The notes below the pieces were generated by a model. It made no database searches. It was not told the DNA's origin and saw only the letters and a program-made list of their open reading frames with translations. This document shows positions 14,522 to 59,400 of a stretch of 64,000 bases of DNA, one piece after another (positions within the stretch are counted from its first letter, which is position 1; each line of letters begins with the position of its first letter). This DNA comes from Argopecten irradians. Lineage: Eukaryota > Mollusca > Bivalvia > Pectinida > Pectinidae. The stretch is taken from contig NC_091142.1 in the NCBI RefSeq assembly GCF_041381155.1, positions 39,791,604 through 39,855,603 of the forward strand, in the 5' to 3' direction. The position numbers were made by a program, and so were the translations under genes.

Positions 14522-17500
14522 ACCTTTCTCTGAACATATGTACCTGCTGATGTTTGGACCACTGCCTTTGTCTGAACATCGTGTACTTGCTGATGTTTGG
14601 ACCACTGTTTTGTCTGAACCTATGTACTTGCTGATGTTTGGACCACTGTCTTTTTCTGAACCTATGTACCTGTTGATGTTTGGACCACTACCTTTGTCTG
14701 AACATCGTGTACTTGCTGATGTTTGGACCACTGCCTTTGTCTGAACATATGTATCTGCTGATGTTTGGACCACTGCCTTTGTCTGAACCTATGTACCTGC
14801 TGATGTTTGGACCACTGCCTTTGTCTGAACATCGTGTACTTGCTGATGTTTGGACCACTGCCTTTGTCTGAACATATGTACCTGCTGATGTTTGGACCAC
14901 TGCCTTTGTCTGAACATATGTACCTGCTGATGTTTGGACCACTGCCTTTGTCTGAACATATGTACCTGCTGATGTTTGGACCACTGCCTTTGTCTGAACA
15001 TATGTACCTGCTGATGTTTGGACCACTGCCTTTGTCTGAACATCGTGTACCGGCTGATATTTGGACCACTGCCTTTGTTTGAACATATGTACCTGCTGAT
15101 GTTTGGACCACTGCCTTTGTCTGAACATGTGTATCTGCTGATGTTTGGACCACTGCCTTTGTCTGAACACATATACCGGCTGATATTTGGACCACTGCCT
15201 TTGTCTGAACATCGTGTACTGGCTGATATTTGGACCACTGCCTTTGTTTGAACATATGTACCTGCTGATGTTTGGACCACTGCCTTTGTCTGAGCATGTG
15301 TATCTGCTGATGTTTGGACCACTGCCTTTGTCTGAACACATATACCGGCTGATATTTGGACCACTGCCTTTGTCTGAACATCGTGTACTGGCTGATATTT
15401 GGACCACTGCCTTTGTTTGAACATATGTACCTGCTGATGTTTGGACCACTGCCTTTGTCTGAACATGTGTACCTGCTGATGTTTGGACCACTGCCTTTGT
15501 CTGAACATATGTACCGGCTGATATTTGGACCACTGCCTTTGTCTGAACATCGTGTACTGGCTGATATTTGGACCACTGCCTTTGTTTGAACATATGTACC
15601 TGCTGATGTTTTGGACCACTGCCTTTGTTTGAACATATGTACTTGCTGATGTTTGGACCACTGCCTTTGTCTGAACACATATACCGGCTGATATTTGGAC
15701 CACTGCCTTTGTCTGAACATCGTGTACTGGCTGATATTTGGACCACTGCCTTTGTCTGAACATATGTACCTGCTGATGTTTGGGCCACTGCCTTTGTCTG
15801 AGCATGTGTATCTGCTGATGTTTGGACCACTGCCTTTGTCTGAACACATATACCGGCTGATATTTGGATCACTGCCTTTGTCTGAACATCGTGTACTGGC
15901 TGATGTTTTGGACCACTGCCTTTGTTGAACATATGTACCTGCTGATGTTTGGACCACTGCCTTTGTCTGAGCATGTGTATCTGCTGATGTTTGGACCACT
16001 GCCTTTGTCTGAACACATATACCGGCTGATATTTGGACCACTGCCTTTGTCTGAACATCGTGTACTTGCTGATGTTTGGACCACTGCCTTTGTCTGAACA
16101 TATGTACTTGCTGATGTTTGGACCACTGCCTTTGTCTGAACATATGTACTTGCTGATGTTTGGACCACTGCCTTTGTCTGAACATATATACCGGCTGATA
16201 TTTGGACCACTGCCTTTGTCTGAACATCGTGTACTGGCTGATGTTTGGACCACTGCCTTTGTTTGAACATATGTACCTGCTGATGTTTGGACCACTACCT
16301 TTGTTTGAACATATGTACCTGCTGATGTTTGGGCCACTGCCTTTGTCTGAACATATATACCGGCTGATATTTGGACCACTGCCTTTGTCTGAACATCGTG
16401 TACTGGCTGATATTTGGACCACTGCCTTTGTTTGAACCTATGTACTTGCTGATGTTTGGACCACTGCCTTTGTCTGAACATGTGTATCTGCTGATGTTTG
16501 GACCACTGCCTTTGTCTGAACACATATACGGCTGATATTTGGACCACTGCCTTTGTCTGAACATCGTGTGTACTGGCTGATATTTGGACCACTGCCTTTG
16601 TTTGAACATATGTACCTGCTGATGTTTGGACCACTGCCTTTGTCTGAACATGTGTATCTGCTGATGTTTGGACCACTGCCTTTGTCTGAACACATATACC
16701 GGCTGATATTTGGACCACTGTCTTTGTCTGAACATCGTGTACTGGCTGATATTTGGACCACTGCCTTTGTTTGAACATATGTACTTGCTGATGTTTGGAC
16801 CACTGTCTTTTTCTGAACATATGTACCTGCTGATGTTTGGACCACTGCCTTTGTCTGAACTTGTGTACTTGCTGATGTTTGGACTACTGTCTTTGTCTGA
16901 ACATCGTGTACTGGCTGATATTTGGACCACTGCCTTTGTTTGAACATATGTACCTGCTGATGTTTGGGCCACTGTCTTTGTCTGAACATCGTGTATTTGC
17001 TGATGTTTGGGCCACTGCCTTTGTCTGAACATATGTACTTGCTGATCTTTGGGCCACTGCCTTTGTATGAACATATGTACTGCTGATATTTGGACCACTG
17101 CCTTTGTCTGAACATATGTACCTGCTGATGTTTGGACCACTGCCTTTGTCTGAACAATGTACTTGCTGATGTTTGGACCACTGCCTTTGTCTGAACATAT
17201 GTACTTGCTGATGTTTGGACCACTGCCTTTGTCTGAACATATGTACTGCTGATGTTTGGACCACTGCCTTTGTCTGAACATATGTACCTGCTGATGTTTG
17301 GACCACTGCCTTTGTCTGAACATATGTACTTGCTGATGTTTGGACCACTGCCTTTGTCTGAACATATGTACTGCTGATGTTTGGACCACTGCCTTTGTCT
17401 GAACATATGTACTGCTGATGTTTGGACCACTGCCTTTGTTGAACATATGTACTGCTGATGTTTGGACCACTGCCTTTGTCTGAACATATGTACTTGCTGA

Positions 17501-20500
17501 TGTTTTTGGACCACTGCCTTTGTCTGAACATATGTACTTGGCTGATGTTTGGACCACTGCCTTTGTCTGAACATATGTACTTGCTGATGTTTGGACCACT
17601 GCCTTTGTCTGAACATATGTACTTGCTGATGTTTGGACCACTGCCTTTGTCTGAACATATGTACTGCTGATGTTTGGACCACTGCCTTTGTCTGAACATA
17701 TGTACCTGCTGATGTTTGGACCACTGCCTTTGTCTGAACATATGTACTGCTGATGTTTGGACCACTGCCTTTGTCTGAACATATGTACTGCTGATGTTTG
17801 GACCACTGCCTTTGTCTGAACATATGTACTTGCTGATGTTTGGACCACTGCCTTTGTCTGAACATATGTACTTGCTGATGTTTGGACCACTGCCTTTGTC
17901 TGAACCTATGTACTTGCTGATGTTTGGACCACTGCCTTTGTCTGAACATATGTACTTGCTGATGTTTGGACCACTGCCTTTGTCTGAACATATGTACTTG
18001 CTGATGTTTGGACCACTGCCTTTGTCTGAACATATGTACCTGCTGATGTTTGGACCACTGCCTTTGTCTGAACATATGTACCTGCTGATGTTTGGACCAC
18101 TGCCTTTGTCTGAACATATGTACTGCTGATGTTTGGACCACTGCCTTTGTCTGAACATATGTACTGCTGATGTTTGGACCACTGCCTTTGTCTGAACTAT
18201 GTACTGCTGATGTTTGGACCACTGCCTTTGTCTGAACATATGTATTGCTGATGTTTGACCACTGCCTTTGTCTGAACTATCGTATTACCTGTGATGATGT
18301 TTGGACCACTGCCTTTGTCTGAACATATGTACCTGCTGATGTTTGGACCACTGCCTTTGTCTGAACATATGTACTGCTGATGTTTGGACCACTGCCTTTG
18401 TCTGAACATATGTACTTGCTGATGTTTGGGCCACTGCCTTTGTCTGAACCTATGTACTTGCTGATGTTTGGACCACTGCCTTTGTCTGAACATATGTACT
18501 TGCTGATGTTTGGACCACTGCCTTTGTCTGAACATATGTACCTGCTGATGTTTTGACCACTGCCTTTGTCTGAACATATGTACCTGCTGATGTTTGGACC
18601 ACTGCCTTTGTCTGAACATATGTACCTGCTGATGTTTGGACCACTGCCTTTGTCTGAACATATGTACTGCTGATGTTTGGACCACTGCCTTTGTCTGAAC
18701 ATATGTACTGCTGATGTTTGGACCACTGCCTTTGTCTGAACATATGTACTTGCTGATGTTTGGACCACTGCCTTTGTCTGAACATATGTACCTGCTGATG
18801 TTTGGACCACTGCCTTTGTCTGAACATCGTGTACTGGCTGATGTTTGGACCACTGCCTTTGTCTGAACATATGTACTCTGCTGATGTTTGGACCACTGCC
18901 TTTGTCTGAACATATGTACCTGCTGATGTTTGGACCACTGCCTTTGTCTGAACATCGTGTACCTGCTGATGTTTGGACCACTGCCTTTGTCTGAACATAT
19001 GTACCTGCTGATGTTTGGACCACTGCCTTTGTCTGAACATATGTATCTGCTGATGTTTGGACCACTGCCTTTGTCTGAACATATGTACCTGCTGATGTTT
19101 GGACCACTGCCTTTGTCTGAACATATGTACTTGCTGATGTTTGGACCACTGCCTTTGTCTGAACATATGTACCTGCTGATGTTTGGACCACTGCCTTTGT
19201 CTGAACATTGTATGTACTGCTGATGTTTGGACCACTGCCTTTGTCTGAACCTATGTATCTGCTGATGTTTGGACCACTGCCTTTGTCTGAACATATGTAC
19301 CTGCTGATGTTTGGACCACTGCCTTTGTCTGAACATATGTACTTGCTGATGTTTGGACCACTGCCTTTGTCTGAACATATGTACCTGCTGATGTTTGGAC
19401 CACTGCCTTTGTCTGAACATCGTGTACCTGCTGATGTTTGGACCACTGCCTTTGTCTGAACATATGTACTTGCTGATGTTTGGACCACTGCCTTTGTCTG
19501 AACATATGTACCTGCTGATGTTTGGACCACTGCCTTTGTCTGAACCTATGTATCTGCTGATGTTTGGACCACTGCCTTTGTCTGAACATATGTATTTGCT
19601 GATGTTTGGACCACTGCCTTTGTCTGAACATATGTACTTGCTGATGTTTGGACCACTGCCTTTGTCTGAACATATGTACTTGCTGATGTTTGGACCACTG
19701 CCTTTGTCTGAATGTTTTGACCACTGCCTTTGTCTGAACCTATGTACTTGCTGATGTTTGGACCACTGCCTTTGTCTGAACATCGTGTACCTGCTGATGT
19801 TTGGACCACTGCCTTTGTCTGAACATCGTGTACTTGCTGATGTTTGGACCACTGCCTTTGTCTGAACATATGTACCTGCTGATGTTTGGACCACTGCCTT
19901 TGTCTGAACATATGTACCTGCTGATGTTTGGACCACTGCCTTTGTCTGAACATATGTACCTGCTGATGTTTGGACCACTGCCTTTGTCTGAACATCGTGT
20001 ACTTGCTGATGTTTGGACCACTGCCTTTGTCTGAACCTATGTACTTGCTGATGTTTGGACCACTGCCTTTGTCTGAACATATGTACCTGCTGATGTTTGG
20101 ACCACTGCCTTTGTCTGAACATATGTACCTGCTGATGTTTGGACCACTGCCTTTGTCTGAACATATGTACCTGCTGATGTTTGGACCACTGCCTTTGTCT
20201 GAACATATGTACCTGCTGATGTTTGGACCACTGCCTTTGTCTGAACATCGTGTACTTGCTGATGTTTGGACCACTGCCTTTGTCTGAACATATGTACCTG
20301 CTGATGTTTGGACCACTGCCTTTGTCTGAACATATGTATCTGCTGATGTTTGGACCACTGCCTTTGTCTGAACATATGTACCTGCTGATGTTTGGACCAC
20401 TGCCTTTGTCTGAACATATGTACCTGCTGATGTTTGGACCACTGCCTTTGTCTGAACATATGTACTTGCTGATGTTTGGACCACTGCCTTTGTCTGAACA

Positions 20501-23500
20501 TATGTACTGCTGATGTTTGGACCACTGCCTTTGTCTGAACATATGTACCTTGCTGATGTTTGGACCACTGCCTTTGTCTGAACACCTATGTACTGCTGAT
20601 GTTTGGACCACTGCCTTTGTCTGAACATATGTACTTGCTGATGTTTGGACCACTGCCTTTGTCTGATAGATGTTTGGGCCACTGCCTTTGTCTGAACATA
20701 TGTACTTGCTGATGTTTGGACCACTGCCTTTGTCTGAACCTATGTACTTGCTGATGTTTGGACCACTGCCTTTGTCTGAACATATGTACCTGCTGATGTT
20801 TGGACCACTGCCTTTGTCTGAACTATGTACTTGCTGATGTTTGGACCACTGCCTTTGTCTGAACATATGTACTTGCTGATGTTTGGACCACTGCCTTTGT
20901 CTGAACATATGTACTTGCTGATGTTTGGACCACTGCCTTTGTCTGAACATATGTACTGCTGATGTTTGGACCACTGCCTTTGTCTGAACATATGTACTTG
21001 CTGATGTTTGGACCACTGCCTTTGTCTGAACTATGTACTTGCTGATGTTTGGACCACTGCCTTTGTCTGAACTATGTACTTGCTGATGTTTGACCACTGC
21101 CTTTGTTGAACCTATGTACTGCTGATGTTTGACCACTGCCTTTGTCTGAACATATGTACTGCTGATGTTTGGACCACTGCCTTTGTCTGAACATATGTAC
21201 TGCTGATGTTTGGACCACTGCCTTTGTCTGAACATATGTACTTGCTGATGTTTGGACCACTGCCTTTGTCTGATCATATGTACTGCTGATGTTTGGACCA
21301 CTGCCTTTGTCTGAACATATGTACTGCTGATGTTTGGACCACTGCCTTTGTCTGAACATATGTACCTGCTGATGTTTGGACCACTGCCTTTGTCTGAACA
21401 TATGTACCTGCTGATGTTTGGACCACTGCCTTTGTCTGAACATATGTACCTGCTGATGTTTGGACCACTGCCTTTGTCTGAACATATGTACTTGCTGATG
21501 TTTGGACCACTGCCTTTGTCTGAACATATGTACCTGCTGATGTTTGGACCACTGCCTTTGTCTGAACATATGTACTTGCTGATGTTTGGACCACTGCCTT
21601 TGTCTGAACCTATGTACTTGCTGATGTTTGGACCACTGCCTTTGTCTGAACATATGTACTTGCTGATGTTTGGACCACTGCCTTTGTCTGAACATATATA
21701 TACCTGGCTGATGTTTGGACCACTGCCTTTGTCTGAACATATGTACCTGCTGATGTTTGGACCACTGCCTTTGTCTGAACATATGTACCTGCTGATGTTT
21801 GGAGCCCACTGCCTGTTTTGTCTGAACATATGTACCTGCTGATGTTTGGACCACTGCCTTTGTCTGAACATATGTACTTGCTGATGTTTGGACCACTGCC
21901 TTTGTCTGAACATATGTACTTGCTGATGTTTGGACCACTGCCTTTGTCTGAACATGTTGTACCTGCTGATGTTTGGACCACTGCCTTTGTCTGAACATAT
22001 GTACCTGCTGATGTTTGGACCACTGCCTTTGTCTGAACATATGTACCTGCTGATGTTTGGACCACTGCCTTTGTCTGAACATATGTACTTGCTGATGTTT
22101 GGACCACTGCCTTTGTCTGAACATATGTACCTGCTGATGTTTGGACCACTGCCTTTGTCTGAACATATGTACTTGCTGATGTTTGGACCACTGCCTTTGT
22201 CTGAACATATGTACTTGCTGATGTTTGGACCACTGCCTTTGTCTGAACATATGTACCTGCTGATGTTTGGACCACTGCCTTTGTTTGAACATATGTACCT
22301 GCTGATGTTTGGGCCACTGCCTTTGTCTGAACATATGTACCTGCTGATGTTTGGACCACTGCCTTTGTCTGAACATATGTACTGCTGATGTTTGGACCAC
22401 TGCCTTTGTCTGAACATATGTACTTGCTGATGTTTGGACCACTGCCTTTGTCTGAACATATGTACCTGCTGATGTTTGGACCACTGCCTTTGTCTGAACA
22501 TATGTACTGCTGATGTTTGGACCACTGCCTTTGTCTGAACATTGTACCTGCTGATGTTTGGACCACTGCCTTTGTCTGAACATATGTACTGCACTTTGCT
22601 GATATTTGGACCACTGCCTTTGTCTGAACATATGTACCTGCTGATGTTTGGACCACTGCCTTTGTCTGAACATATGTACCTGCTGATGTTTGGACCACTG
22701 CCTTTGTCTGAACATATGTACCTGCTGATGTTTGGACCACTGCCTTTGTCTGAACATATGTACCTGCTGATGTTTGGACCACTGCCTTTGTCTGAACATA
22801 TGTACTGCTGATGTTTGGACCACTGCCTTTGTCTGAACATATGTACTTGCTGATGTTTTGGACCACTGCCTTTGTCTGAACATATGTACTTGCTGATGTT
22901 TGGGCCACTGCCTTTGTCTGAGCATATGTACTTGCTGATGTTTTGACCACTGCCTTTGTATGAACCTATGTACTTGGTGATGTTTTGGACCACTGCCTTT
23001 GTCTGAACATATGTACTTGCTGATGTTTGGACCACTGCCTTTGTCTGAACATATGTACCTGCTGATGTTTGGACCACTGCCTTTGTCTGAACATATGTAC
23101 TTGCTGATGTTTGGACCACTGCCTTTGTCTGAACATATGTACTTGCTGATGTTTGGACCACTGCCTTTGTCTGAACATATGTACTTGCTGATGTTTGGAC
23201 CACTGCCTTTGTCTGAACATATGTACTTGCTGATGTTTGGACCACTGCCTTTGTCTGAACATATGTACTTGCTGATGTTTGGGCCACTGCCTTTGTCTGA
23301 ACATATGTACTTGCTGATGTTTGGACCACTGCCTTTGTCTGAACCTATGTACTTGCTGATGTTTTGACCACTGCCTTTGTATGAACCTATGTACTTGCTG
23401 ATGTTTGGACCACTGCCTTTGTCTGAACATATGTACTTGCTGATGTTTGGACCACTGCCTTTGTCTGAACATATGTACTTGCTGATGTTTGGACCACTGC

Positions 23501-24815
23501 CTTTGTCTGAACATATGTACCTGCTGATGTTTGGACCACTGCCTTTGTCTGAACATGTGTACTTGCTAATGTTTGGACCACTGCCGTTGTCTGAACATCG
23601 TTTACTAGCGGATATTTGGACCACTGCGTTTGTCTGAACATATGTACCTGATGATGTTTGGACCACTGCCTTTGTCTGAACATATGTACTTGCTGATGTT
23701 TGGACCACTGCCTTTGTCTGAACATATGTACCTGCTGATGTTTGGACCACTGCCTTTGTCTGAACATATGTACCTGCTGATGTTTGGACCACTGCCTTTG
23801 TCTGAACATATGTACTTGCTGATGTTTGGACCACTGCCTTTGTCTGAACATATGTACTTGCTGATGTTTTGGGGCCACTGCCTTTGTCTGAACATATGTA
23901 CTTGATGATGTTTTGACCACTGCCTTTGTCTGAACCTATGTACTTGCTGATGTTTGGGCCACTGCCTTTGTCTGAACATATGTACTTGCTGATGTTTGGA
24001 CCACTGCCTTTGTCTGAACATGTGTACTTGCTGATGTTTGGACCACTGCCTTTGTCTGAACTTGTGTACTTGCTGATGTTTGGACTACTGTCTTTGTCTG
24101 AACATCGTGTACTGGCTGATATTTGGACCACTGCCTTTGTCTGAACATATGTACCTGCTGATGTTTGGACCACTGCCTTTGTTTGAACATATGTACCTGC
24201 TGATGTTTGGACCACTGCCTTTGTCTGAACATATGTACCTGCTGATGTTTGGACCACTGCCTTTGTCTGAACATATGTACCGGCTGATGTTTGGACCACT
24301 TGCCTTTGTTTGAACATATGTACCTGATGATGTTTGGACCACTGCCTTTGTCTGAACATATGTACCTGCTGATGTTTGGAGCCAGCCTTTGTCTGAGCAT
24401 GTGTACCTGATGATGTTCAGACCACTGCCTTTGTTTGAACATATGTACCTGATGATGTTTGGACCACTACCTTTGTCTGAACCTATGTACCTGTTGATGT
24501 TTGGAGCCAGCCTTTGTCTGAGCATGTGTACTTGCTGATGTTCAGACCACTGCCTTTGTCTGAACATGTGTACTTGCTGATGTTCAGACCACTGCCTTTG
24601 TCTGAACATATGTACCTGCTGATGTTTAGACCACTGCCTTTGTCTGAACATATGTACCTGATGATGTTTAGACCACTGCCTTTGTCTGAACATATGTACC
24701 TGTTGATGTTTGGACCACTGCCTTTGTCTGAACTTATGTACCTGATGATGTTCAGACCACTGCCTTTGTCTGAGCATGTGTACTTGCTGATGTTCAGACC
24801 ATTGCCTTTGCTAAG
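14522..24815. repeat. Satellite array, 42-bp monomer, about 10.3 kb
   Basis: Roughly 245 head-to-tail copies of a 42-bp monomer (blocks TATGTACCTGCTGATGTTTG and GACCACTGCCTTTGTCTGAA, then CA). The monomer is a multiple of three and lacks stops in several frames, so long artefactual open frames arise: three frames on the minus strand (up to 1,710 codons) and one on the plus strand. Many monomers are 41 bp (TGTACTGCTG, one base short), which shifts frames repeatedly; there is no codon bias or splice structure. I read it as non-coding satellite DNA. Diversity is higher at both edges (14.5-17.1 kb and 23.5-24.8 kb) than in the middle, as expected if homogenisation is strongest in the centre. The right edge shows variants with GTTCAGACCACTG and GTTTGGAGCCAGC. 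Confidence 0.97.
15018..16940. repeat. 169-bp higher-order repeat within the satellite
   Basis: In this part, four variant monomers recur in fixed order: one with CATCGTGTACTGGCTGATAT (43 bp), then TATGTACC.., TGTGTATC.. and CACATATACCGGCTG.. (42 bp each), giving a 169-bp period. Equivalent points fall at 15018, 15187, 15356, 15695, 15864, 16033 and 16202. The central and right part of the array lacks this strict order. Confidence 0.85.
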
Positions 24816-26779: not shown

Positions 26780-27084
26780 CCTAACATATTGTTGACATTG
26801 TCTTGGCTTGTAACCTTACTTTTGTCGATGTAACTTGACCTTGCTGATGTCTTGAGCAATAGCCTTAACTAATGGTTTCGTTTCAACATGTACATTGACT
26901 ATCAATCTTGCTGATGTAAACAGGATCATTGCCTTTGATAACTAAATCAATCGCTTTTAAATACAAGTATTGCACTGTTGCAGTCATCACTAATAAGAAT
27001 TTCATCTCATGTGCTGTATAGCTGGTTATTTTTGCAGGGTAATATTTTTTTACAATTTCACTTTTTACATATTACTACAAATGA

Positions 27085-28000
27085 AATTTGAGAAAGATCC
27101 TTTGAGTACTTTCTGAGATAATAACAGTAACAAACTTCAATAATCAAAATCCAAGATGGCTACCTGTCAGCCATCTTTTTGAATGATCAGTCCAAAAATG
27201 CAATATGCACAACTAAGGTCCTAGGGGAACTTATATATATAAATTTGAGACAGATCACTTCAGTACTTTCTGGGAAATAGTGGTAACAAGCTTCAACTAG
27301 CAAAATCCAAGATGGCGGCCTGTCGGCCATCTTGGTCATCGATCGGTCCCTAAATGCAATATGCACAACTAGACCCCTAGGGGAACCTGCACATGAAATT
27401 TGAGACAGATCTCTTCAGTACTTTCTGAGAAATAGTGGTAACAAACTTCAATTGTCAAAGTCCAAAATGGCACCCTGTCGGCCATCTTGTTCAGCGATCG
27501 GTACAAAAATGCAATATGTATAACCAGGGACCTAGGGGACCATGCACATGAAATTTGAGACAGCTCCCTTCAGTACTTTTGGAGAAATTGCAATAACAAA
27601 CTTCAATTGTCAAAATCCAAGATGGCGACCTGTCGGCCATCTTGTTGACCCATTGGTCCCAAAATGCAATATGCACAACTAGACCCCTAGGGGAACCTAC
27701 ACGTGAAATTTGAGAGAGATCCCTTCTGTACTTTCTGAGAAATAGTGGTAACAAACTTTACCTACCAAAATCCAAGATGGCTGCCTGGCAGCCATTTTGT
27801 AGACCGATTGGTCTCAAAATGCAATATGCACAACTAGGGCCCTAGGGGAACCTACATATGAAATTTGAGAAAGATCCCGTTATTACTTTCTGAGAAATAG
27901 TGGTAACAAGAATTGTTAATGGACGGACGGATGGACAGAAGGACGGACCACGGATGAAAAGCGATTTGAATAGCCCACCATCTGATGATGGTTTGCTAAA
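27085..28000. mobile_element. Pearl/Helitron-like element: 155-bp tandem repeats, ACGG microsatellite, 3' hairpin
   Basis: The block CCAAGATGG (or CCAAAATGG) recurs at 27151, 27307, 27462, 27616 and 27772, a period of 154-156 bp. A short ACGG-type microsatellite follows (about 27918-27947), then a hairpin AGCCCACCAT..ATGGTTTGCT with CTAA at 27996-27999. This order, tandem core then ACGG microsatellite then 3' hairpin with a CTRR end, is that of bivalve pearl elements and Helitron-associated non-autonomous elements. Each core unit carries a small palindrome GATGGC..GCCATC. The 5' limit is uncertain. Confidence 0.65.
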
Positions 28001-28195
28001 AAACATTATTACAAAAATAAAACCAAAACAATACATAATTATCATAAATATTTATTACTCTAATGTTTCATTTAAACTTTCTCAAACATTCACCATTCTT
28101 ACTGACACACCATACAATAAATGAAGACACAGTTGAAAAAATATATTATAATGTATTGTGTAGCACTAGCTTATAACATACTTCATTTTTAAGTG

Positions 28196-28362: not shown

Positions 28363-29049
28363 TGTAGATTAATCACACACTTCCTTTTGTAGTGTATACT
28401 GTTGAGTCAGTCGAGTTATGATGTCGTGTGTAAAATGGACCAAGGGGACATAACCACTATACTTGAGTATATCTTTGTATAGCAGGAATACAAACACAAA
28501 TGCTGTTCTCCTTATTTTGGTCAGAGAGACATCTAATTGAAAACATAGAAGGGCCAGCTAGGTATTCATCTCCAATTTCCTAGTACAGTATACTAATTTC
28601 AATATTAGCTGATAGTTGGGTCTTGATGAAAATGCCTCTCATCAAATGGTAGGTAGAAGAAATATGTATGAATACTTATTTTTAGGCAATGATCTTTTTT
28701 ATATGTTTTGTTCAAAAAATGAGATTAAGAATCCACCATAGATAATAAAGCATATGACTACTGGCAGGATAAACCAGATACCCCATTTCAACGACAACGC
28801 TGCCAAAGTAAGTTGTGTTATCTTAAAAATATATCAATATGAAAACTGCATAACCTGTATAAACAATTATGGACGGAACTATGTAAATGTTAACAATGTA
28901 ACTAGCTTTGGAATGTAAGCGTTCAGCTTTGTGTACAACATATTTAATTACAGATGTTATCACAAGCCAGTATACGTGGAGAAAACATCTTGCTAACGAG
29001 TCTTCAATGGCATAATATATATTTCAGTTATTAAAACACTAAGTATAAA
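28363..29049. other. Downstream of TMEM17, no coding sequence seen
   Basis: Probably includes the TMEM17 3' UTR on the minus strand. No open frame or repeat stands out. Confidence 0.5.
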
Positions 29050-29346
29050 CTATGTAAGCAGGTTCTGGTGATACGAGTCGTAGCCGTCGTGCCAGTGGAC
29101 CTCCTCACCAGGAAGCTGTTCTAGGTCCGTAAACTGCCGTAGATGAAACTTTGTCACCTGATAGTTCACCATTGTCCGGATAGCAAAGTAACCACACACC
29201 GCCTCGAACAGAATAAACAGGGCCTCCACAATGTGTACGGCCCGCTCCAGGGGTAACAAGATGGCATCGTCATTAAACGTCAGTAGTAAGATCAACGGTA
29301 GCTGTATCAACAGTGTTAACAGCCAAGAACCGGCCAATTCAGGAAC
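29050..29346 (-). CDS. TMEM17: TMEM17 exon 4, third and fourth membrane segments and C-terminus
   Basis: 297 nt after CTCCAG. Begins VPELAGSWLL, has two hydrophobic segments and ends with an acidic, histidine-rich tail and a stop at 29050-29052. The first 11 nt of this exon, plus its acceptor, are repeated in the adjoining tandem array. Confidence 0.95.
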   Translation of the reverse strand, partial: VPELAGSWLLTLLIQLPLILLLTFNDDAILLPLERAVHIVEALFILFEAVCGYFAIRTMVNYQVTKFHLRQFTDLEQLPGEEVHWHDGYDSYHQNLLT

Positions 29347-32300
29347 CTGGAGAATGTAGATATACAAAGATTGGTCATCAAACAAAATAAAGATAGGTCA
29401 TATAAACCTAATTCAGGAACCTGGAGAATGCAAATATACAAAGATTGGTCATCAAACAAAATAAAGATAGGTCATATAAACCTAACTCAGGAACCTGGAG
29501 AATGTAAATATACAAAGATTGGTCATCAAACAAAATAAAGATAGGTCATATAAACCTAACTCTGGAACCTGGAGAATGTAAATATACAAAGATTGGTCAT
29601 CAAACAAAATAAATATAGGTCATATAAACCTAACTCTGGAACCTGGAGAATGTAAATATACAAAGATTGGTCATCAAACAAAATAAAGATAGGTCATATA
29701 AACCTAACTCTGGAACCTCGAGAATGTAAATATACAAAGATTGGTCATCAAACAAAATAAAGATAGGTCATATAAACCTAACTCAGGAACCTGAAGAATG
29801 TAAATATACAAAGATTGGTCATCAAACAAAATAAAGATAGGTCATATAAACCTAACTCAGGAACCTGGAGAATGTAAATATACAAAGATTGGTCATCAAA
29901 CAAAATAAAGATAGGTCATATAAACCTAACTCAGGAACCTGGAGAATGTAAATATACAAAGATTGGTCATCAAACAAAATAAAGATAGGTCATATAAACC
30001 TAACTCTGGAACCTGGAGAATGTAAATATACAAAGATTGGTCATCAAACAAAATAAAGATAGGTCATATAAACCTAATTCAGGAACCTGGAGAATGCAAA
30101 TATACAAAGATTAATCATCAAACAAAATAAATATAGGTCATATAAACCTAACTCTGGAACCTGGAGAATGTAAATATACAAAGATTGGTCATCAAACAAA
30201 ATAAAGATAGGTCATATAAACCTAACTCTGGAACCTGGAGAATGTAAATATACAAAGATTGGTCATCAAACAAAATAAAAATAGGTCATATAAACCTAAC
30301 TCTGGAACCTGGAGAATGTAAATATACAAAGATTGGTCATCAAACAAAATAAAGATAGGTCATATAAACCTAACTCAGGAACCTGGAGAATGTAAATATA
30401 CAAAGATTGGTCATCAAACAAAATAAAGATAGGTCATATAAACCTAACTCAGGAACCTGGAGAATGTAAATATACAAAGATTGGTCATCAAACAAAATAA
30501 AGATAGGTCATATAAACCTAACTCTGGAACCTGGAGAATGTAAATATACAAAGATTGGTCATCAAACAAAATAAAGATAGGTCATATAAACCTAACTCAG
30601 GAACCTGGAGAATGTAAATATACAAAGATTGGTCATCAAACAAAATAAAGATAGGTTATATAAACCTAACTCTGGAACCTGAAGAATGTAAATATACAAA
30701 GATTGGTCATCAAACAAAATAAAGATAGGTCATATAAACCTAACTCAGGAACCTGGAGAATCCAAAGATTGATCATAAAGAAAGAAAACAAGCCTGGAGC
30801 CAAGAGTAAAGTCACTAGTCATCATTAACTGTGCTTAATAACTATAACCAAATTCTCAAAACTAATTTTATTAACAAATAGACTACGGTCAAAAATTTCC
30901 CCTATATAGAGGTAAATTAAAATAGTTTGATGCTTTCTGTCTTGAGAAAGTGGAGCCAGGTATTAGGGAGAAAAACTGTTTGATGTACTTATACCACACA
31001 TTTCATGAAGGTTAACTTAATTATGACAAAAGGGAGATAACCCAAGCTATTTGCAATTTTGTTTTAAATATAAGAGCCTTTTCTATATGGTACAATATAT
31101 TACACAAGGAAAAATTCTTTCTTTAAACATATCAATGTAAGAAAGATTTGCCATTTATGTGGTATATATTTTCTGAGAAAAATAGCATTCAATACATTTT
31201 GCTTACAAACGACTCGGAAAACATTTGCCAATGTAAGGAAATCACACCAACATGACCAAACATTGTCACAGTTTAATTAGGTACAAATGGTTTTTTTTTC
31301 AGACTTAGCCCTTAAGCTGGCTCACAAAGCCCTATATCTGAGATACTCATACAGCTTACATTTACTATATAAAATTTATGAACTATACATATTTAATTTA
31401 TTTCTACTCATATATGCTCATCAAACTAATTCATTATTTCTATTGTATCATTCATCTTTAAAATTTTATGAAACTTTTGCATTCATATTCCTAGGGTTTA
31501 GACCAATCACCATTTAGCTATGTATCATTTCCTCCATTACTTCCTTAGCAACTTATCTATGACGTTATAATACATTGTTATTATCACATGAAAAAAATTA
31601 AGAACTAAACATCCTCACAGTTTATAACTTACCCTCTCTGTTAGGTTGCCAGTGTATCCTATATAAAGACGGATGATCTCGATAATTGTATACACAATGT
31701 AGATAGCAATCAGAACAATCACATACAAGATGGACAGTCGGGTATACTGGAATAAAAAAACAGAAAATTTTACACTATCTTATTTAAAATATAACATTTA
31801 TAAACATACTAACAGAAATAAGTGGATTCCACAGTATTAAAAGCCAATACAATTTATCTTATATCACAATTAAAGTAAATTTTAAATCAATAAAAATTTC
31901 CAATGTAAAATTCCATTAAAGTGTAATAGTGTTAATATTTTGCTATGTTAATTGCGCAAAATATTTTTTTCCCTAAAGTTTCTCATATATCATTTATCCA
32001 CAAATATTTGCTAACAAATAAGCAATCCAAACTGAAGCAGAATTATCTTACCTTTATTTCGAAGCACACTAGTATGGACGTTAACCAGAATGGGATGAAG
32101 AACATGTTGAAATACAGAGCCATCTGTAGGGGAAGATTGGACACATATTCATTTCCTGCAAAACAAAGCAACACATTACTAAAAATATTTGCTCCTGGTT
32201 GATAATACATATAATCTAATGATCCTCAAATCTAAATATGATACATGTACAGTAATAATACAAAATGTATTCCAGCTACTGTACTCATAAATGAAGTAAA

Positions 32301-38466: not shown

Positions 38467-41400
38467 GTACTATAGCTAAACTTAAGTTTGTTAAACACTA
38501 AAAAAAGTGGTATAACTCAGGTCATTTGGTCAAACATTCTGCTGAATTTATCATTATTTTCTTTACTTACCTTCCTTTCTATCCTGTTGCATGGAATCAA
38601 ACAGACTGTTTAAATCATTTCTGTTCGCTTGCATATTGACAGAGATTTGTGGTAGAGTCTTATACAAGAGCAGTGATTTTCTTACTCAATGATTTCAGAA
38701 GCCTGTACCTTCGGAATTGGGAAACATGTATATGTAAGAGAGATTTTCTTTCTTTGGGAAAAGGTTTACATAAAATTGGGAATATACAGCAAAATTTGTC
38801 GAGGGAAAGGGCCTTTATTCGGCTCAAATATTCCTAAAAAAAAATCACTGATATGTGTGTGTCAGTCATTTACAATGGCTTTTTCTGATTTTCCACAATA
38901 ACAAATGTTTGTTTGTTGTTTTAGTTTTATGTCCTATTAAAAATAGGATGCAAAGCCGGAATATCTGGAAATGTAGTATACAATATCTTTTGATTGGTAA
39001 ACATTTATGATACACATATGTTTATGAAAAAAAGTGAATTTTTATGTCAAAACACAGGTTTTAATATTAAATCTTTTTCTTACTCTTTAAGCAATATGAA
39101 AATCAGATAGCAGAAAAGGAGAAAACAATAGCCGATCTCCAGAGTATGGTTGATAATGTGGAGGTTACTGTGAGCAATGGAAAACAAGATAAAGGAAGAG
39201 AAAACACTAGTCTTACAGAAACAAAAAGTTTAGGGACACAGATTGGTCCAACAGAAACAAACATTTTTGGAACCCAGACTGATCCTGTTGAAATGATCAA
39301 TTCAGAAACACAGATCGACCCTATAGAAACAAACAATTGTGAAACCCAGATTGACCATGTAGAAACAAACAGTTCATGGACACAGGTTAGTCCTATCGAA
39401 ACAAATAATTCATGGACTCAGTTTGAGCCTTTGGAAACAAACAATTTGGGGACGCAGATTGAACCTATAGAAACAAACAGTTTGGGGACACAGATTGATC
39501 CAGTTGAAACAAACACTTTAGGGTCACAGATTGAAGCTGTAGAAACAAACAGTTTAGGAACTCAGTTTGAACCTATAGAAACAAACAGTTGTGAGACCCA
39601 GGCAGATGGTTCTCCGTGTCTGCGATGTGAACAGATGGACAATGATATCCTAGAGAAACAAGTGTCTCTGTATGTCAACAGTATTGTCACCAAGTGTACA
39701 GCTGATCTACAATGTGAACAGGTAAAGATTTCAGTAAAAATATGAACTCTATACTCTACATATTTAACAAATATTAATTAGCACTGTGTTAAGTAGCTGT
39801 GATGACATAGCTCTGAACGACGGACGGAAGATTTCTGACAGATGGTCGTTGTCAGAGCTACGATTCCGTCCCATTGACCATAGTGTTGCAAAACATTCAG
39901 CGGTGAAAATGTTGCATTTCACGTGTGTCATGTACTTTTGTAATTAAATTCAACAATATCAAACATTTTAAACATAAAATGACTATTTATTTACCCACCT
40001 CCATGTCTAAATTATATTTTAAAGCACTTTTGAATGGCTCACATCTCCGACACGGCTCACTTGGCCGCCATGATGCTTCTCGTTTGAAAGTCTCGCGCTC
40101 CAAATATGGCAACTAGTACCATATATGGAATGACCTACAAATTTTCACTACGAAAGAAATATAATGTCACAGAGTTATTAACATGAACTTAAAAAAATCT
40201 TTTTCGCTATATTCTAAATAATACTTACATTTGTTCAGTTCCACCATGTTTATTCTTAGTTTGTTGGCTTTTTAAAACTTTTAAACATATTTTACCTGTT
40301 GAGTGTTTCATCACGGTTTCCGTTAAATCAAACATGGCGGCGTATTTGAACAGAATTATACATGTGTTGTGTTTGCCTTGGATTTTACCACTAATAGTTG
40401 ATGAAACATTATAATCGAAAGGTTTGTGAATTGAATATTGGTCATTGTTGTCAGAACAATACAGTTACATAAGGATAATACTCAAAAAATATATTTTATC
40501 AGTCTCAAAGTGCGCATGTGAATCACAGTGGGGCTTGCAACACTATCGGCAATGGGGTGGAATTCATACCCTGCCGGGAACCGGAGTGGAGGCAGGGTAT
40601 GATTATTCATTCTATGTGTTAAGATACAACTAGTTCTCTTACCTTGATATGGGAACAACTCTTATATGATATGAATACCTGTCAAATGTAAATGTATCTT
40701 GACCAAGACTAAAATTCTGTTTTGCATTTTATATCAAGATTATTCCGTATTTGCATATCACAGAGATTTCTGCTCTCGAGGGTAGGTATTGATTGAGACG
40801 TTATGTGTTTGGGAGAGTAACGTCATACTTTTCGGAGAAAATTCTGCTCACAAAATAATGACATCACAATCAATACCTACCCACAAGGGAGGTAACTGTA
40901 ACATGCAAAAATGGAATGCCGGTATGATAAAGTTATGGTCGTTGGAGACTTGAACGTTGTTTTGCTGAATTGTATGAACTCTGAATTTGCAGATCGCTGC
41001 ATTTTTAAATCAGACAACGGATGCCGATCGAGACCACCAACTTGTGAGTGCCAACTCTGTGATACAAGAACTACGGACTGAACTAGACCAGTATACAGGG
41101 CTAACTGAGAGTGTCGTACTGGCCGAGACACTGCAGGTATGTATAGTTTGGCTGACCTTTCATTGGATGTTTCATCAGTTCCTTTTCTGCAAGATCCTGT
41201 GAGGTGGAAATCAATACTGATAAAAAAGCAAGCAGTGATTCCTTATCCAGCGGGATCATTACTTTTTCAGTTGATTGATTTTTAGGAGGCATTCTTTCTT
41301 TCTCTGCTTTATAATGTGTGCAAAAGTCTATATGGCATTCATCTTATATTTTCTCCCCCAGGTAAAGATACAACAGAGTGTAGAAGATAACTACCACAAG

Positions 41401-44400: not shown

Positions 44401-47400
44401 TGTTCCAACAATCGTATAACATTATATTTTTTGTACAGATATTTCAACATGACGCGCTAACGCGAATACCTGTGGTATATTGGATATAAGTGTATAATCT
44501 TACACTTGTGCTCTGTAAAAAATTATTATTATTTTGTTTTCTGTCACCAATAAAATCACACCTGACATGCAGTTTTAGCTGGTGCAAATTTATGACATGG
44601 TGTTTGATTTTTGATTAGCATAAGCATTGTAGACATCCAAATTCATGTAACTATTTTGAATGCTTACATTTAAATGTACATCTTACAGACTCACCTCACA
44701 ACTTGAACAGATGGAAGTTACCCTGAATGATCTCCGTACAGACTTAAGTGATGTTCAGGAAAAGCTATCTGTCACCGAGAAGGAGGTAGTCAGTCAAGGG
44801 GAGACAATCACAGCTCTCAACAGTCAGCTAGAGCAAACCAAGGAGAATGCTGCTGTACAAGTGGAACTCAACCGTGGCATCAAGGTAATTACCGTAAAAA
44901 TGTTTTATTTTGAAGATGAATTGATTAATTTACAATATGATGTGCATTTTGTGCAATAATCATAAAAGTAACTTTGTTAGTGACGTCTTGAGGAACATTA
45001 CAAAAAATTATAAGTGTAAAGCAACTTTATCGTGACAACTTAAAGTTATTTTAATGCTTAAAGACTTTCACAACGACTAACTTTAGTGATTTACAAGTTC
45101 TACTTTACCAAAGTCTAAGTTATATGCTTAAAGACTTTCACAACGACTAACTTTAGTGATTTACAAGTTCTACTTTACCAAAGTCTAAGTTATATGCTTA
45201 AAGACTTTCACAACGACTAACTTTAGTGATTTACAAGTTCTACTTTACCAAAGTCTAAGTTATATGCTTAAAGACTTTCACAACGACTTACTTTAGTGAT
45301 TTACAAGTTCTACTTTACCAAAGTCTAAGTTATATGCTTAAAGACTTTCACAACGACTAACTTTAGTGATTTACAAGTTCTACTTTACCAAAGTCTAAGT
45401 TATATGCTTAAAGGGACAATTCACTCAGGCTAATTCTTTTACATAACCAAGAAGCAAAATATGGCATGAATGTATTGTTCTACATTTCTTATGAAACATA
45501 TAACATAAGATATTGACAAATTCCACATCATTATTTAGTATTTTAATTGATACCGTTGTAATTACAAATCATTGATCAATACGATTAAGCAGGTACAATA
45601 TGTACGCTGTACCCATACCCGAGCCAAAGTCACGCACGTTAAACAAATGAACTACATAACCACTGTGGAGGTGATATAATGATTTTTTAGGCAAAACAAT
45701 TCACCTTATAAGGTAAACACACTTCTGTCAGAGCGATTTGAGCAGTTCTAGACAAAAGTAGCATTACTCTACGAGCAAGGGACTGGGTTCGGCATACAAG
45801 ATATTCGACCACAATATGTAATGGCGGACAGCGAGTGAGTTTGAACATTTCACACGCATTTCACCACCATGGGATTTTCTGACATATCACAGTAAAACCG
45901 ACTGATCTAATTTCCATTAGAACTGGGGGTTTCCGATATATATACAAATTTTAATGTTCTCGTAGAATGAATTGTCACTTTAAAGACTTTCACAACGACT
46001 TACTTTAGTGATTTACAATTTCTACTTTACCAAAGTCTAAGTTATATGCTTAAAGACTTTCACAACGACTTACTTTAGTGATTTACAACCGTACAAGTTC
46101 TACTTTACCAAAGTCTAAGTTATGTGAAACTAAATCACACATGGAAGTTTTGATTTACAATATATGACCTTCAAAGTTTGTTATTGTTTGGATTATTATA
46201 TAAAATGCCTTCACTGGGTTGATTTAAATTTGGTCAGTGAAGATAAAGAGAAGCGAACGCTATTGAAATGTGCTTGATATGATACAAATAACACATAAGC
46301 ATATAAATGCACTTACTGTACAAAACCAACCTTCTTATTTTACACTGCACATTTCATCATTAACTACGTTTTTACAGCAATTTAATTTTGCAGTTGATAG
46401 TCAACATGTGATACTGTAGCCGTGTTTGACACTTTTTCATGGTGATTTATTTTTTTTGCAATTTTTACTTGCCCACAGAATACATATTATGATTTATTAT
46501 TATTACAAGGATGATGTATCTTTCAGAGCAAAAATGAAGATCTCCTTAGAAGCATAGAGGAAAAAAATGATGACAATGCTAAACTAAGACAGAAATTAAG
46601 TGAATTGGAATCCCAGCATCGCTGCGCCGAAGAGCAGTCAGAATCTGAAATGGAGGTACTAAGACAGAGGTGTGACAGTCTGCTGACAGAACAAGCTCTA
46701 ACCCGACAGGCACACATCAACCAGGTGCGCGACCTGGAGCAGGAGTTAGCACGCCGCGACTGTAGTGGACAGCTTCGTACTGCCCACGGCCTGATACAGG
46801 AACTTCAGACGGAGCTCGCGGAGTACACAGAGCTGTCAGATAGTCTCAAGATGGCAGAGATTTTACAGGTAACTATTACAGGTGTAGCTCTCAAAGAGTA
46901 CGGGAACCATTAGGATCCCAAAAGGATTGGTACTTTAGGAGTGTGAATAGATATGTTTGCAGCTACACAATTTATAGAAAATCAGCAATTTGGTCACTCT
47001 TATCATCTCTAGTATTACTTTGAAATGTTGTTTTGTTAACACTGGTATGGTCATAAGCTTTAAAAATACAATTACACTTTACAACTCTGTTGTGTAAACT
47101 CAAAAGAACTTTTAAAAAATCAATTGATGGGATCTTCAGAAATAAGTACAGTAACAGCATATCCTCTAAGTGTTAGGTTTAACATTGGTATCGTCTTATT
47201 CAGAATTTATTTGGAACTATTGTGCTAAAGAGGTTATATCATTATTGCTCTGTACACAGGCGAAGGTACAAGAGGTGGTCACTGAGAATTTCCTGAAGGT
47301 GAAGACAGCTGCAGACAAACTACTGACGTTAAAGAGGAATATTGATACAGAGGTAACGAACAATTCTCTGCTAAAAACTTCTCTAGGTAGCACAATTTGT

Positions 47401-53400: not shown

Positions 53401-56400
53401 GGATGTAATTTTCGTGTATATAACAGAAAAGATCTTTTTGTGTACCAAGCTTCTTAATGCTTAAAGATGATAGTCCAATGACAATAAACTACTGATTTAT
53501 TTTCACTTTTCAGAATGCACCCACTAATTCTGAAGTTTGTAAAGAGAATCCTGATGTAGAGGAACCTTGTGAGAATAATAAAAATAAAAGAAATTGTAAA
53601 GCTAGAAAATCATTTTTGTCAGAGATATTCCTGGCCGCGTCCAAAAAGGAAACCAGTCTTGTCTCGCCTCTAAGGGAGGAGTACGGTAATGGATCGGATG
53701 AGGTAGGGGAAGAGAGTCCCGGGTCTGACCAAAACATCTCCGGGATATATCCTCTACAGAGTAGCACAGAGGTGAGCCCAGCCACCATCAGCAGGAACAA
53801 GTTAGGCTCCTCAAGTTCTAGTGCATTTGCACCAGTACGGACTGGTCAGAGCCTGATAGTTCCGCAGGCAGGGCCTTTAGGTTCATCTAGTGATAAGGAT
53901 TCTACCGACGAGGCCATTAATGTGAACCAGGAAAGTAATACCTCCGAACCAGTCAGCCAACCAGAGGAGACTCTCACTCAACAAATCAACACAATCAACG
54001 AATACTTCACAGAAATCATCCGTCTAGCCAGCATTGTGGAGAAGGCATCACGACTGTCTATTGATGAAGTCAACGCTGATAAGTAAGCGGATTCTAGTCT
54101 TTTTGGCGGTCTGTATTATCATTGGGAAATAAAGTACCAAAGCTATCTAAATGATACTTTTCTACAATGCTGATTTATATATAATGCTTATGCATCTTCA
54201 GTATAATTAATTAAGATTGACCGTTTTGTAAAATGTTTGAAGTTATTAAATTTGTTGTTATAATTTTTAACCTTAGATAAACAACATGGAGTAATGATTA
54301 TGTTGTCAAATCAAATGTTCTGTGGCCTGGTGTTGGCAATTACTTAAAGTGTGACAAACAATAACATTGAATTGCCTCTTGAAGAGAGTGGAGCTTATGG
54401 TGTTATCTGTAACTATGTGTACTGACATTGATTTCTACAATAATTTTGGATTATAGTTGTTGTGATAGATATGGACAATCATTTAAAGGAAGGAAAATGC
54501 TGAATTTTAAGAAATCCAACATGCCAAATGGGTCAAAATTACCAGGTCAGGTTTTGGTGCAAGTCCAGAGATGAGCTTTGCTGTTGTTCTCCTTGAGGAA
54601 TAGTTGTAAAATAACCACTACAAAGGAGACTTTTAACAGATTTGTACAGTTGCATCTATTCTAATAAAGTTTACATTTTGTTGGTTTGTTTTAGTGAGGA
54701 ATTGCGACAGAACATCCAGAGACTACAGATTGTAGAACAGGATGTTGTGAGGAAGGAAAAGGAAGTGGTACGACAGAAGGAAGTTATAACAACACTAGAA
54801 CAACGACTGGAAAATATGGCTGAGAACCTCGAACGTTTCTCTGACCAGGAATCTCTCATTATGGTAAGTAACAGTCTTGTGACTGAGTTTGAGTCACCAC
54901 CAACCTTGCATAATTTTAAGAACCTGGAAGTTTCAATGATGTTGGTTGCAGTCAAATATAACACTTGTTATGACCCAGAATAACAGAAATGAGAAACCAG
55001 CAGCTAAATTCAAAACACAATTTAATTATATACAATATTATACAGAGATGGTTTACAATATCTAAAGTAATTGGTGGTGGTACAAGAGTAATACGATGAT
55101 TTAAAGTGTTACTTATCTGTATGCGAATGTCCTGGTATAATCCTTGATTCTTCCAGGTTTCAAATTAACAATAATCAAAAATCCACGAGGAAAATGAATG
55201 TCCACAGATGATTTGTAAAGTTCCAGGCAATATGAATAAATCCACACAAAGTGTTGTAATAATCCACAGATAAAGTCACAATAGCTCTCCCAATAGAATC
55301 TAATATGGCACTGTACAACTCTTGATATGTCTCATTACAGGTCTCATTACAGTTCTGATTAGCTTTGGACAGTTGGAGTATATATAGCTAAACCCTATTT
55401 CAAGAATATTGGAGAACCTTCTACTTCTAGAAATATCTAACTAAAAACAGTAAACAAATAAACACACAGAACTTTCTGGAAATAGATCATTCTAGATCTC
55501 TACTTATAATCAACATTTTTACAAACATATTTGTTTATACGATGATAATATTCTAGAAAGTTCTATAACCTAAATTAATTATGTGAACTTTATAGGATGT
55601 ATTGATAATATAGCTATAGGAGTTATCTTCCCTATCTAATAACTACATGTATTTAGTGTCATACATAACACACCCCTCCTTAAAGAAAAGAAAGTTTTCT
55701 TGAAAAGGAAACTTTCTTGAAATATCAAGTAACGTTTAAATCCTTGATAAGGCATCAGCCAGAATATTGTCTTTCCCTTTGATATGTTTGATGTCAAGAT
55801 TGTACTCTTGCAAAGTCAAACTCCACCTGAGAATTCTTTGATTTTTGTTTTTCATTTTCCCAATGAATGTTAATGGGTTGTGGTCGGTGAAGACCAACAC
55901 AGGCACAACTGTAGTGCAGAGATACACATCAAATTGGTTCAAGGCCAAAATCAACGCTAAACATTCTTTCTCAATGGTGGAATAATTTCTCTGGTGTTTG
56001 TCAAACTTTTTCGAGAAATAACAAATTGGATGGTCAATTTGTTCAATACCTTCTTGCATCAAAACAGCACCAACACCTACATCGCTGGCGTCAACAAACA
56101 GTTTAAACTGTTTATTAAAATCTGGAGCAGTCAGAACTGGTGAGTTTGATAATATGGCTTTCAATTTCTCAAAGGCAGACTTACATTCGTCTGACCAGAC
56201 AAATTTGACATTTTTCTTTAACAAAGCAGTAAGTGGAGCTGCTATAACAGAGAAATTTTGACAAAATTTTCTGTAGTATCCAGCCATACCAAGAAATCTC
56301 ATCAGCTCTCTCTTGCTTCCAGGAGTTGGAAAATCTATAATTGATTCTACTTTGGCCTGAACAGGTTTAACCTGCCCCTGTCCTACAACATGGCCTAAAA

Positions 56401-59400
56401 ATTCAACAGTTGCATGACAAAATTCACATTTCAATAAGTTTACAGTCAATTTCATAGTAGTGAGTCTTTCGAAGAATTCACGAATCCCGCGTAGATGGTC
56501 TTCCCACGTGTCGTGGTAGTTGATGACGTCATCAATGTATCCATCACAGCCTTCCAGGTCTGATATCACGCAGTTAAGAAGACGTTGAAATGTTGCCGGG
56601 GCATTCTTCATACCAAACGGCATAACTTTGTACTGGTACAAACCTTGTGAAGTTACAAATGCAGACACTTCTTTGGCTCTTTCTGTTAATGTCACCTGCC
56701 AATATCCTTTCAACAAGTCAAACTTGCTTACGTTCTTAGCTTTGCCAACTTTGTCAATACACGAGTCAATCCTTGGAATTGGATAAGGGTCTGTTTTACT
56801 GACAGAGTTAACTTTTCTGAAGTCAGTACAGAACCGGTATGTCTTGTCTGGCTTTGGTACCAGAACACATGGAGAGCTCCATTCACTTTTGCTTGGTTCA
56901 ATAATATCATTTTCCAACATGTATTGAATTTCTTTCTTTAAATGTTCTTCTTTCAAAGGATTGACACGGTAAGGATGTTGCTTGGCAGGTGTTGCATCTC
57001 CCACATCCACGTCGTGATAGATAGCATCTGTTTTGCCTGGTGTATCCGGAAACAAATGCTTAAACTCAAGTATCAAATCTTTCAGTTCATTGCGTTCCTT
57101 TCCTGATAGATGACATAGTTTCTTGTCCAAGTTCGCGAGCACATCTGAGTTCCGTAACTTAAGACCACAGTCTAAACCTACATCTTAAGCTTGTACACCA
57201 CCATCTAAGTCTAATTTACAAATATCAGCTGTACTTTCACTTTGTGATGGTACAGAGGCCAAAGTAGCAATAGGTTGAGAGGTCTTGCTCTCTTCTCTAT
57301 CTACATATTTCTTAAGCATATTAACATGACATAATTGAGTTTTCTTGCGCCTCCCTGGAGTTTGTACAATGTAGTTAACATCATCGACCTTTTTCTCAAC
57401 AACATAAGGTCCAAAATATCTAGCTTGCAAAGGCTGACTCGGTATTTGTAATAGAGCCAAAATTTTGTCACCTGGATCAAAACTTCTTGCACGGGCATCT
57501 TTATCATACCATGTTTTCATTTTGGTTTGAGTAACGGCCAAATTTTCTTTTGCTAGTTCACATGCCCTTGTCAACCTTTGCTTAAAGTTAGACACATACT
57601 CTAAGATATTCACTTTAGAATCTTCTTCCAAAATTTTGTCTTTCAAAATTTTCAAAGGACCACGTACAGTATGTCCAAACACAAGTTCAAAGGGACTGAA
57701 GCCAAGAGATTCTTGTACAGATTCTCTAACGCCAAACAACAACATGTGTATGCCTTCGTCCCAATCTCTTTTGTTTTCAAAACAATAAGATCTCATCATA
57801 TTCTTCAATGTCTGATGAAAACGTTCTAAAGCACCCTGAGACTCTTGATGATAAGCACTAGACTTATACTGCTTGATCTGGAGCTGGTACATGAATTGTT
57901 GAAAAATACCAGACATGAAATTCGAACCTTGGTCCGACTGGGCAGCTTTTGGAAGACCAACCAATGTAAAGAATTTAACCAAAGCCTTGACTATGTTAGG
58001 GGCCTTAATATTTCTGAGTGGAATGGCTTCAGGAAAGCGTGTGGAAGCACACATAATAGTTAAAAGATACTCATTCCCAGACTTAGTTTTGGGTAGAGGA
58101 CCTACACAGTCTATAATGACTCTACTAAATGGTTCCTCAAATGCTGGAATTGGGTGCAGAGGTGCCACAGGGATTTTCTGATTAGGTTTCCCTACCACCT
58201 GACAAGTATGACAAGACCTACAAAAATCAGCCACATCCCGTTTCAACTTGGGCCAAAAGAAGTGATCTAAGATCCTGTTATAAGTCTTGGTAACACCTAA
58301 ATGCCCTGCCATAGTTACATCATGAGATAAACTCAGAATATCTTGCCTATACCTCGGTGGGACAACTATTTGATTGACAACCTTCCAGTCTTCTTTGGGA
58401 GACACATCAGGGGGCGCCACTTGCGCATCAACACACCTGACTGACGGAAGTAACAAACCGGGACTTTCTCAGCCTCTTCCTCACTCAAAGCCCGATTACA
58501 CAATAAGGAGATTTCAGGATCTTTCTCCTGTTCTACTATAAGCTCCTCTCTAGACAAAGATGATTTACTCATCATGTCAGACAAAGAAGTACCCTTGTTA
58601 GGAACAACTCTATCACTATCAAAGTCTACAGGATTGCTCAAAAGATCACACTTGCTCCCGACATCCTCTATATCATGAGCCAAGAAAGTGTCACCTAACC
58701 CTGGACTATAATGATCCTCAACTACTGCAACATCAGAAACCTTCTTACTCATTGAACGAGTTACAGCACAAGAAGGGAAAATACCAGGAAATTCCTGTTG
58801 AATAGTCTCAGCATCATCTGTTTTATCAGGGATACTGGACACTAAGGGATCTACCCTAACTTTCTCTCCAGCCAAGTCATTGCCTAAAATGAGCGACACG
58901 CCCTCTATGGGAAGTTCCTGTCTAACACCAATGGTGACAGGCCCAGTAACCAAGTCTGACTTTAAATAAACAGAATGGAGAGGCACATTAACAAAACCTA
59001 ACTCTACACCTTGAAGCAAAACACTACTACCAGATGAGGTCTCCTCAGACAAAGGCACTACGCCATCTAATATCAAAGAATGAGAAGCCTCAGTATCTCG
59101 CAAAATCTTCACAGGTTTCAAGTTGGTAATATCACTAGTAAGTGAAACAAAACCTTCAGAAATGAAGGGAGAGTACTTCTCCAAGACACTATCAGACTCT
59201 GAGCTCTTAATTTCAACAGACACTTTAGAATCTTCCACAATATCACTAAGTTTCTGACTAGGCTTTGACATAGCTAACACAGAAGGAACTGACTGTTTAC
59301 GCCTTTGCTCCTTACGCTGGAGAGAATAACATTCAGACATAACATGCCCTACTTTCTTGCAGTAATTACAAACAGGACCAGAAGAAGACCCCCACACCTG

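Follow-up and report, generated by a model that had tools for sequence, protein, structure and literature searches.

What does it mean for a gene that one of its splice acceptors is present in twenty tandem copies, of which only the last borders an exon? This is the question raised by a locus in the window, i.e., the whole stretch of 64,000 nucleotides analyzed here, in which the acceptor of exon 4 of a TMEM17 gene is preceded by a long array of near-copies of itself. According to the original prediction, these copies may act as decoys that tune the output of the gene through nonsense-mediated decay (NMD). The answer depends on where the true boundary lies, how similar the extra acceptors are to it, and what their use would produce.

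The gene was delimited with the Pfam profile PF09799 (Transmemb_17), to which exons 3 and 4 score above the curated cut-off of 26 bits (Table 1). This family is wider than TMEM17, and we take the gene to be TMEM17, the name already proposed for it, because of the family match and a resemblance to the human protein. The profile ranges of the two exons adjoin, with a true split consistent with 64/65; the overlap at position 65 stems from the exon 3 query, which extended three bases beyond the exon and therefore has an intronic last residue. Exons 2 to 4 (exon 1 was not located) form one open frame down to the stop codon, reading ...IGYTGNLTER/VPELAGSWLL... (here and below, the slash marks the splice junction). 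Since exons 3 and 4 adjoin in the profile and join in frame at 29346, the terminal copy of the array (copy 0, CTCCAG/GTTCC) is the authentic exon 4 boundary, as had been predicted, and the gene stays intact over exons 2 to 4. The array takes up more than half of intron 3. Besides the possible poly(A) signal of Table 1, an AATAAA is found at 28056, ca. 990 nt beyond the stop codon.

Table 1. Coordinates of the TMEM17 gene and of the tandem array in its third intron
Feature	Positions	Strand	Evidence
TMEM17 exon 2	32052..32155	-	Weak PF09799 match (profile positions 1-24, E 0.049, 14.6 bits, under the curated cut-off); open frame with exons 3-4
TMEM17 exon 3	31633..31746	-	PF09799 positions 18-65, E 2.3e-09, 38.2 bits
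TMEM17 intron 3, GTAAGT...CCAG, 2286 nt	29347..31632	-	Donor AGG/GTAAGT after 31633; acceptor before 29346
Coding part of TMEM17 exon 4, 98 aa counted from the acceptor, ending in the stop TAG	29050..29346	-	PF09799 positions 65-107, E 4.7e-06, 27.6 bits
19 full 74-bp units	29336..30741	-	TRF and unit table; the terminal unit coincides with the authentic boundary of intron 3 and exon 4
20th copy, on the intron-side edge, degenerate and with a gap of 8 nt, core CTCCAG/GTTCCTGAGTT kept	30742..30788	-	Local alignment
Possible poly(A) signal ATTAAA, ca. 100 nt past the stop	28943..28948	-	Motif only

The acceptor-like copies lie on the minus strand between 29346 and 30752, and all 20 keep an exact 74-bp register (29346+74k, k=0-19). 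The predicted count and spacing were thus right, but the copies are not all identical: 17 have the exact motif CTCCAG/GTTCC, and the other three carry a single substitution, CTCGAG at 29716 and CTTCAG at 29790 and 30678. Exact CTCCAGGTTCC has 17 matches in the 64,000-nt window, all on the minus strand and inside the array; 100 dinucleotide-preserving shuffles gave 0.00 on average. TRF delimits a minisatellite-like tandem array at 29339-30761, with a period of 74, 19.2 copies and 97% matches. Each unit corresponds to the last 63 nt of intron 3 plus the first 11 nt of exon 4, acceptor included, i.e., it spans the intron-exon boundary and contains both a part of the exon and a splice signal. The degenerate copy at the intron-side edge has a local alignment score of 59, which none of 1623 random stretches of the window reached; without the acceptor core, the score drops to 34, equalled by 39 of 1595 random stretches, so the rest of this copy is weakly similar to the unit. 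The random stretches were drawn leaving out the array surroundings and a 10-kb satellite.

Variation among the units is limited. Units 0 to 18 have on average 2.0 differences (maximum 7), full units being ca. 97% identical; five of the 19 share one common sequence and another five a second one. Within the exonic part, the complete 11 exon bases (GTTCCTGAATT) are common to copies 0, 1 and 10, while the remaining 17 copies deviate at +9 and nine of these at +6 too. The two variants (+6 T/A and +9 A/G) both fall on third codon positions, a placement that is suggestive but, with a chance of 3/55 if the sites were random, too weak a sign to argue for selection. A homogenized interior and a divergent edge can be clearly told apart at the intron side, where the degenerate copy is found; the pattern is less clear at the exon side, where unit 0 carries one private change.

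Pyrimidine content at -20 to -5 is 0.69 in all 20 copies, and the AG-free stretch upstream measures 59 nt in 19 of them and 39 nt in the edge copy. Nine other acceptors of the window (two of TMEM17 and seven of the neighboring coiled-coil gene) range from 0.44 to 0.88, with the array value inside this range. The seven come from 12 coiled-coil gene acceptors that were tried, five being dropped since the guessed border was off an AG (those at 39k, 44k, 52k and 54k) or uncertain (51k). By these simple measures of sequence, the decoys match the authentic acceptor, and what sets the latter apart is the exon 4 sequence directly after it. As the acceptors themselves carry no mark of the authentic site, decoy use could be substantial. 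The prediction of about 19 decoy acceptors ahead of the true one agrees with the 19 extra copies, 18 of which have YCAG. The exception is the decoy at 29716, with a G at -3, a departure from the acceptor consensus that marks a poor site; hence, this copy should be a poor acceptor.

Some other ways in which the repeat might affect the transcript were considered and rejected. Recursive splicing at CAG/GTTCC would need a donor, and by inspection GTTCCT lacks the GTRAGT donor consensus; likewise, no good donor was seen by eye that would turn the units into cassette exons. The folding energy of the array RNA was -307, below that of all 10 mononucleotide shuffles (mean -256, lowest value -268), which are a weak control, and a small AGGTT/GACCT hairpin appeared in all five units folded. 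A special RNA fold of the array was discarded because of this weak control and because repeating any folding unit gives the same result. The Rfam scan of the window retrieved no family at gathering score.

The frame arithmetic of the original prediction was confirmed by translation. From the decoy adjoining the exon, 34 aa are read before a TAA in exon 4, and from each of the other 18, 28 aa are read before a stop in the next unit. The consequence that had been drawn from it, decay of the mis-spliced mRNA, is much weaker. Canonical NMD requires that the stop codon be followed by an exon junction. The natural stop is located in exon 4, and all 19 decoy stops are upstream of it in that exon, beyond which no junction is known. 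Because they share this exon, junction-dependent NMD from decoys is not expected, unless there were an intron in the 3' UTR or NMD sensed 3' UTR length. The NMD step is the weakest link of the proposal, which overall is partly supported: the gene, the acceptor, its multiplication and the frames were right.

Even so, a regulatory role of the array as a length-dependent splicing rheostat is conceivable. The decoys would compete with the authentic acceptor and divert a sizeable share of transcripts into non-productive forms, with array length tuning TMEM17 output. Such a role would be in keeping with 19 decoys in perfect 74-bp register, all but one with YCAG and every one leading to a premature stop, and those nearest exon 3 would be transcribed first. 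There are precedents too, since in human IFI6 (6-16), two downstream minisatellite units are reported to serve as splice donors, giving three mRNA species (PMC4526556), and the authors of the amphioxus globin study pointed out that the repeats of a mirage could be used as cryptic sites (PMC3087553). However, besides the position of the decoy stops in the exon of the natural stop, amphioxus mirages are said to leave splicing undisturbed (PMC3087553, PMC3902484), and selection would probably act against strong mis-splicing. On balance, such tuning seems unlikely. It is similarly doubtful that the proportion of productive TMEM17 mRNA is set by how many decoys there are, in a length-controlled competition among acceptors that would mirror IFI6 on the acceptor side.

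Another possibility is that the array derives from a dispersed satellite or transposon-derived repeat that happened to reach the exon border, the acceptor being there by chance. The window, with a G+C content of 35.8%, does contain many other tandem arrays: the eight with a period of at least 20 and at least three copies (TRF), this one included, cover 14,456 of the 64,000 bases (22.6%). Among these, the TMEM17 array is the only one known to cross a splice site, sites having been placed in TMEM17 and in a part of the coiled-coil gene. Against a dispersed origin, the authentic site reads the final 11 bases of the unit in the frame of TMEM17, and a search of the 64-kb window with a 25-nt core, allowing up to three mismatches, gave 19 matches, every one in the array and none outside it. 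We consider this origin quite improbable.

The other repeats of the window are of diverse kinds. One is a satellite of 10.3 kb (14523-24810), built of 42-bp units in a higher-order period of 126 bp. Its frames on the minus strand remain open over as much as 1715 aa, probably owing to a unit length (42) that is divisible by three, and frame changes from unit to unit are numerous. At 27075-27909, there is a 155-bp repeat (5.4 copies, 82% matches) with a consensus that contains a AAGATGGCGACC...GGCCATCTTG inverted motif. Two arrays are associated with the coiled-coil gene: a 36-bp tandem repeat in its plus-strand frame (39217-39590), coding for a 12-aa unit resembling ETNSLGTQIDPV, and a 70-bp repeat, probably intronic, at 45054-45413 (5.1 copies, 99% matches), a young array of possibly variable length. 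The region of the same gene harbors an LTR-type retroelement (ca. 55000-61405) with reverse transcriptase and RNase H on the minus strand. Its direct repeats are identical at 634 of 641 aligned bases (98.9%), and each contains a 12-bp GTCTCATTACAG tandem repeat. These 12-bp arrays end in TTACAG (55329 and 61094) and were considered as further tandem acceptors, but they were rejected as they sit in the direct repeats flanking the reverse transcriptase frame.

The product of decoy use suggests a third alternative, in which the array as a whole would serve as one robust alternative terminal exon and generate a truncated TMEM17 with a hydrophobic tail of 28 aa. Whichever decoy is used, the product is nearly identical, with 18 of the 19 giving the 28-aa tail and one the 34-aa tail, all ending in VPELGLYDLSLFCLMTNLCIFTFSRFLS or close variants. 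For one such tail, the best 19-residue Kyte-Doolittle mean is 1.61, a value near that of membrane segments. Yet this convergence on almost a single product follows automatically from a 74-nt period in which one frame is open and the following one meets a stop, and a role of the array as a source of this isoform is very improbable. As for an assembly artefact that inflated or collapsed the copy number, it is hardly credible: the BflGb6 mirage did appear aberrantly assembled in a draft genome (PMC3087553, legend of a supplementary file), but here several units have their own substitutions, in mixed order, and together with the degenerate edge copy this means that the array is not the simple repetition of one read, even if the exact number may be off.

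The TMEM17 array is, then, probably an ordinary minisatellite of the mirage type, close to neutral and compatible with mostly correct splicing. It has the structural features of a mirage, although only one of its edges is clearly divergent. What could be established directly are the gene, the junction, the unit, the number of copies and the frames, and the following steps would account for them. A 74-bp segment across the boundary between intron 3 and exon 4 would have been duplicated in tandem on the spot. Its growth and homogenization by unequal exchange, replication slippage or gene conversion would then have placed 19 extra acceptor-like sites upstream of the original one. Most transcripts would use the authentic acceptor, preferred because it alone has real exon sequence directly after it, and the array would be close to neutral. 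Occasional use of a decoy would add k x 74 nt to the last coding exon, the product being a TMEM17 truncated after the segment encoded by exon 3 and extended by a hydrophobic tail of 28-34 aa. In a window so rich in tandem arrays, one that runs across a splice site is to be expected now and then, which argues against assuming a selected function by default. Against neutrality, the acceptors are alike, the repeat donors of IFI6 are used, and tandem repeats are retained in human transcripts. Besides, BflGb6, with at most six units, may not predict the behavior of 20 copies. By analogy with the same gene, variation in array length among individuals is plausible.

Arrays that cross an exon boundary are rare, but repeats of this kind have been described before. 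Among the matches listed in the open-license PMC literature, there was no earlier report of a boundary array in TMEM17 nor of a mirage in a mollusc, which does not prove absence; an abalone gene described there contains an ordinary variable intronic minisatellite, away from the boundary (PMC6905558). With TMEM17, a gene whose family belongs to the ciliary transition zone joins those that carry a minisatellite across an exon boundary, and mirages would extend beyond cephalochordates if the host is not a lancelet. It also provides a large natural series of near-identical acceptors that differ mainly in position and downstream sequence, so that one RNA-seq set could show the effect of transcription order and exon sequence.

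The closest relatives of the array are the mirages of amphioxus, likewise minisatellite-like repeats with a unit across an intron-exon boundary of a working gene. They have been described in Adh3, the globins BflGb6 and BflGb9, and TnC, with similar imperfect duplications in PGBD5 (PMC3087553, PMC3902484). Many of their repeats hold AG/GT signals, and the boundary units are reported to escape homogenization (PMC3087553). RT-PCR of Adh3 and the globins suggested that regular splicing is undisturbed (PMC3087553); the same non-interference is reported for Adh and TnC and was inferred for the PGBD5 duplications (PMC3902484). BflGb6 has six or three units of 150-160 bp, depending on the haplotype, each of which takes in an intron end together with the beginning of the exon that follows (PMC3087553). 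As in BflGb6, what is duplicated in TMEM17 is an intron's 3' end along with the 5' portion of the exon after it, and an edge unit differs from the homogenized interior; in contrast, the array has 20 copies of 74 bp and is in another gene. A splice site multiplied by a minisatellite within a gene is also what characterizes IFI6, where the unit is short and in frame, although there it is the donor instead of the acceptor that is multiplied, and the use of the repeat copies is documented. Finally, minisatellites are found at exon-intron boundaries in human segmental duplications as well, where they can change the structure of a gene and bring cryptic splice sites into use, and two thirds of the intron modifications at tandem repeats also have repeat-retaining transcripts (PMC2812944). 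These repeats resemble the TMEM17 array in their location but consist on average of four units of 30 bp in recent paralogs, in which they lengthen exons or introns or form novel introns.
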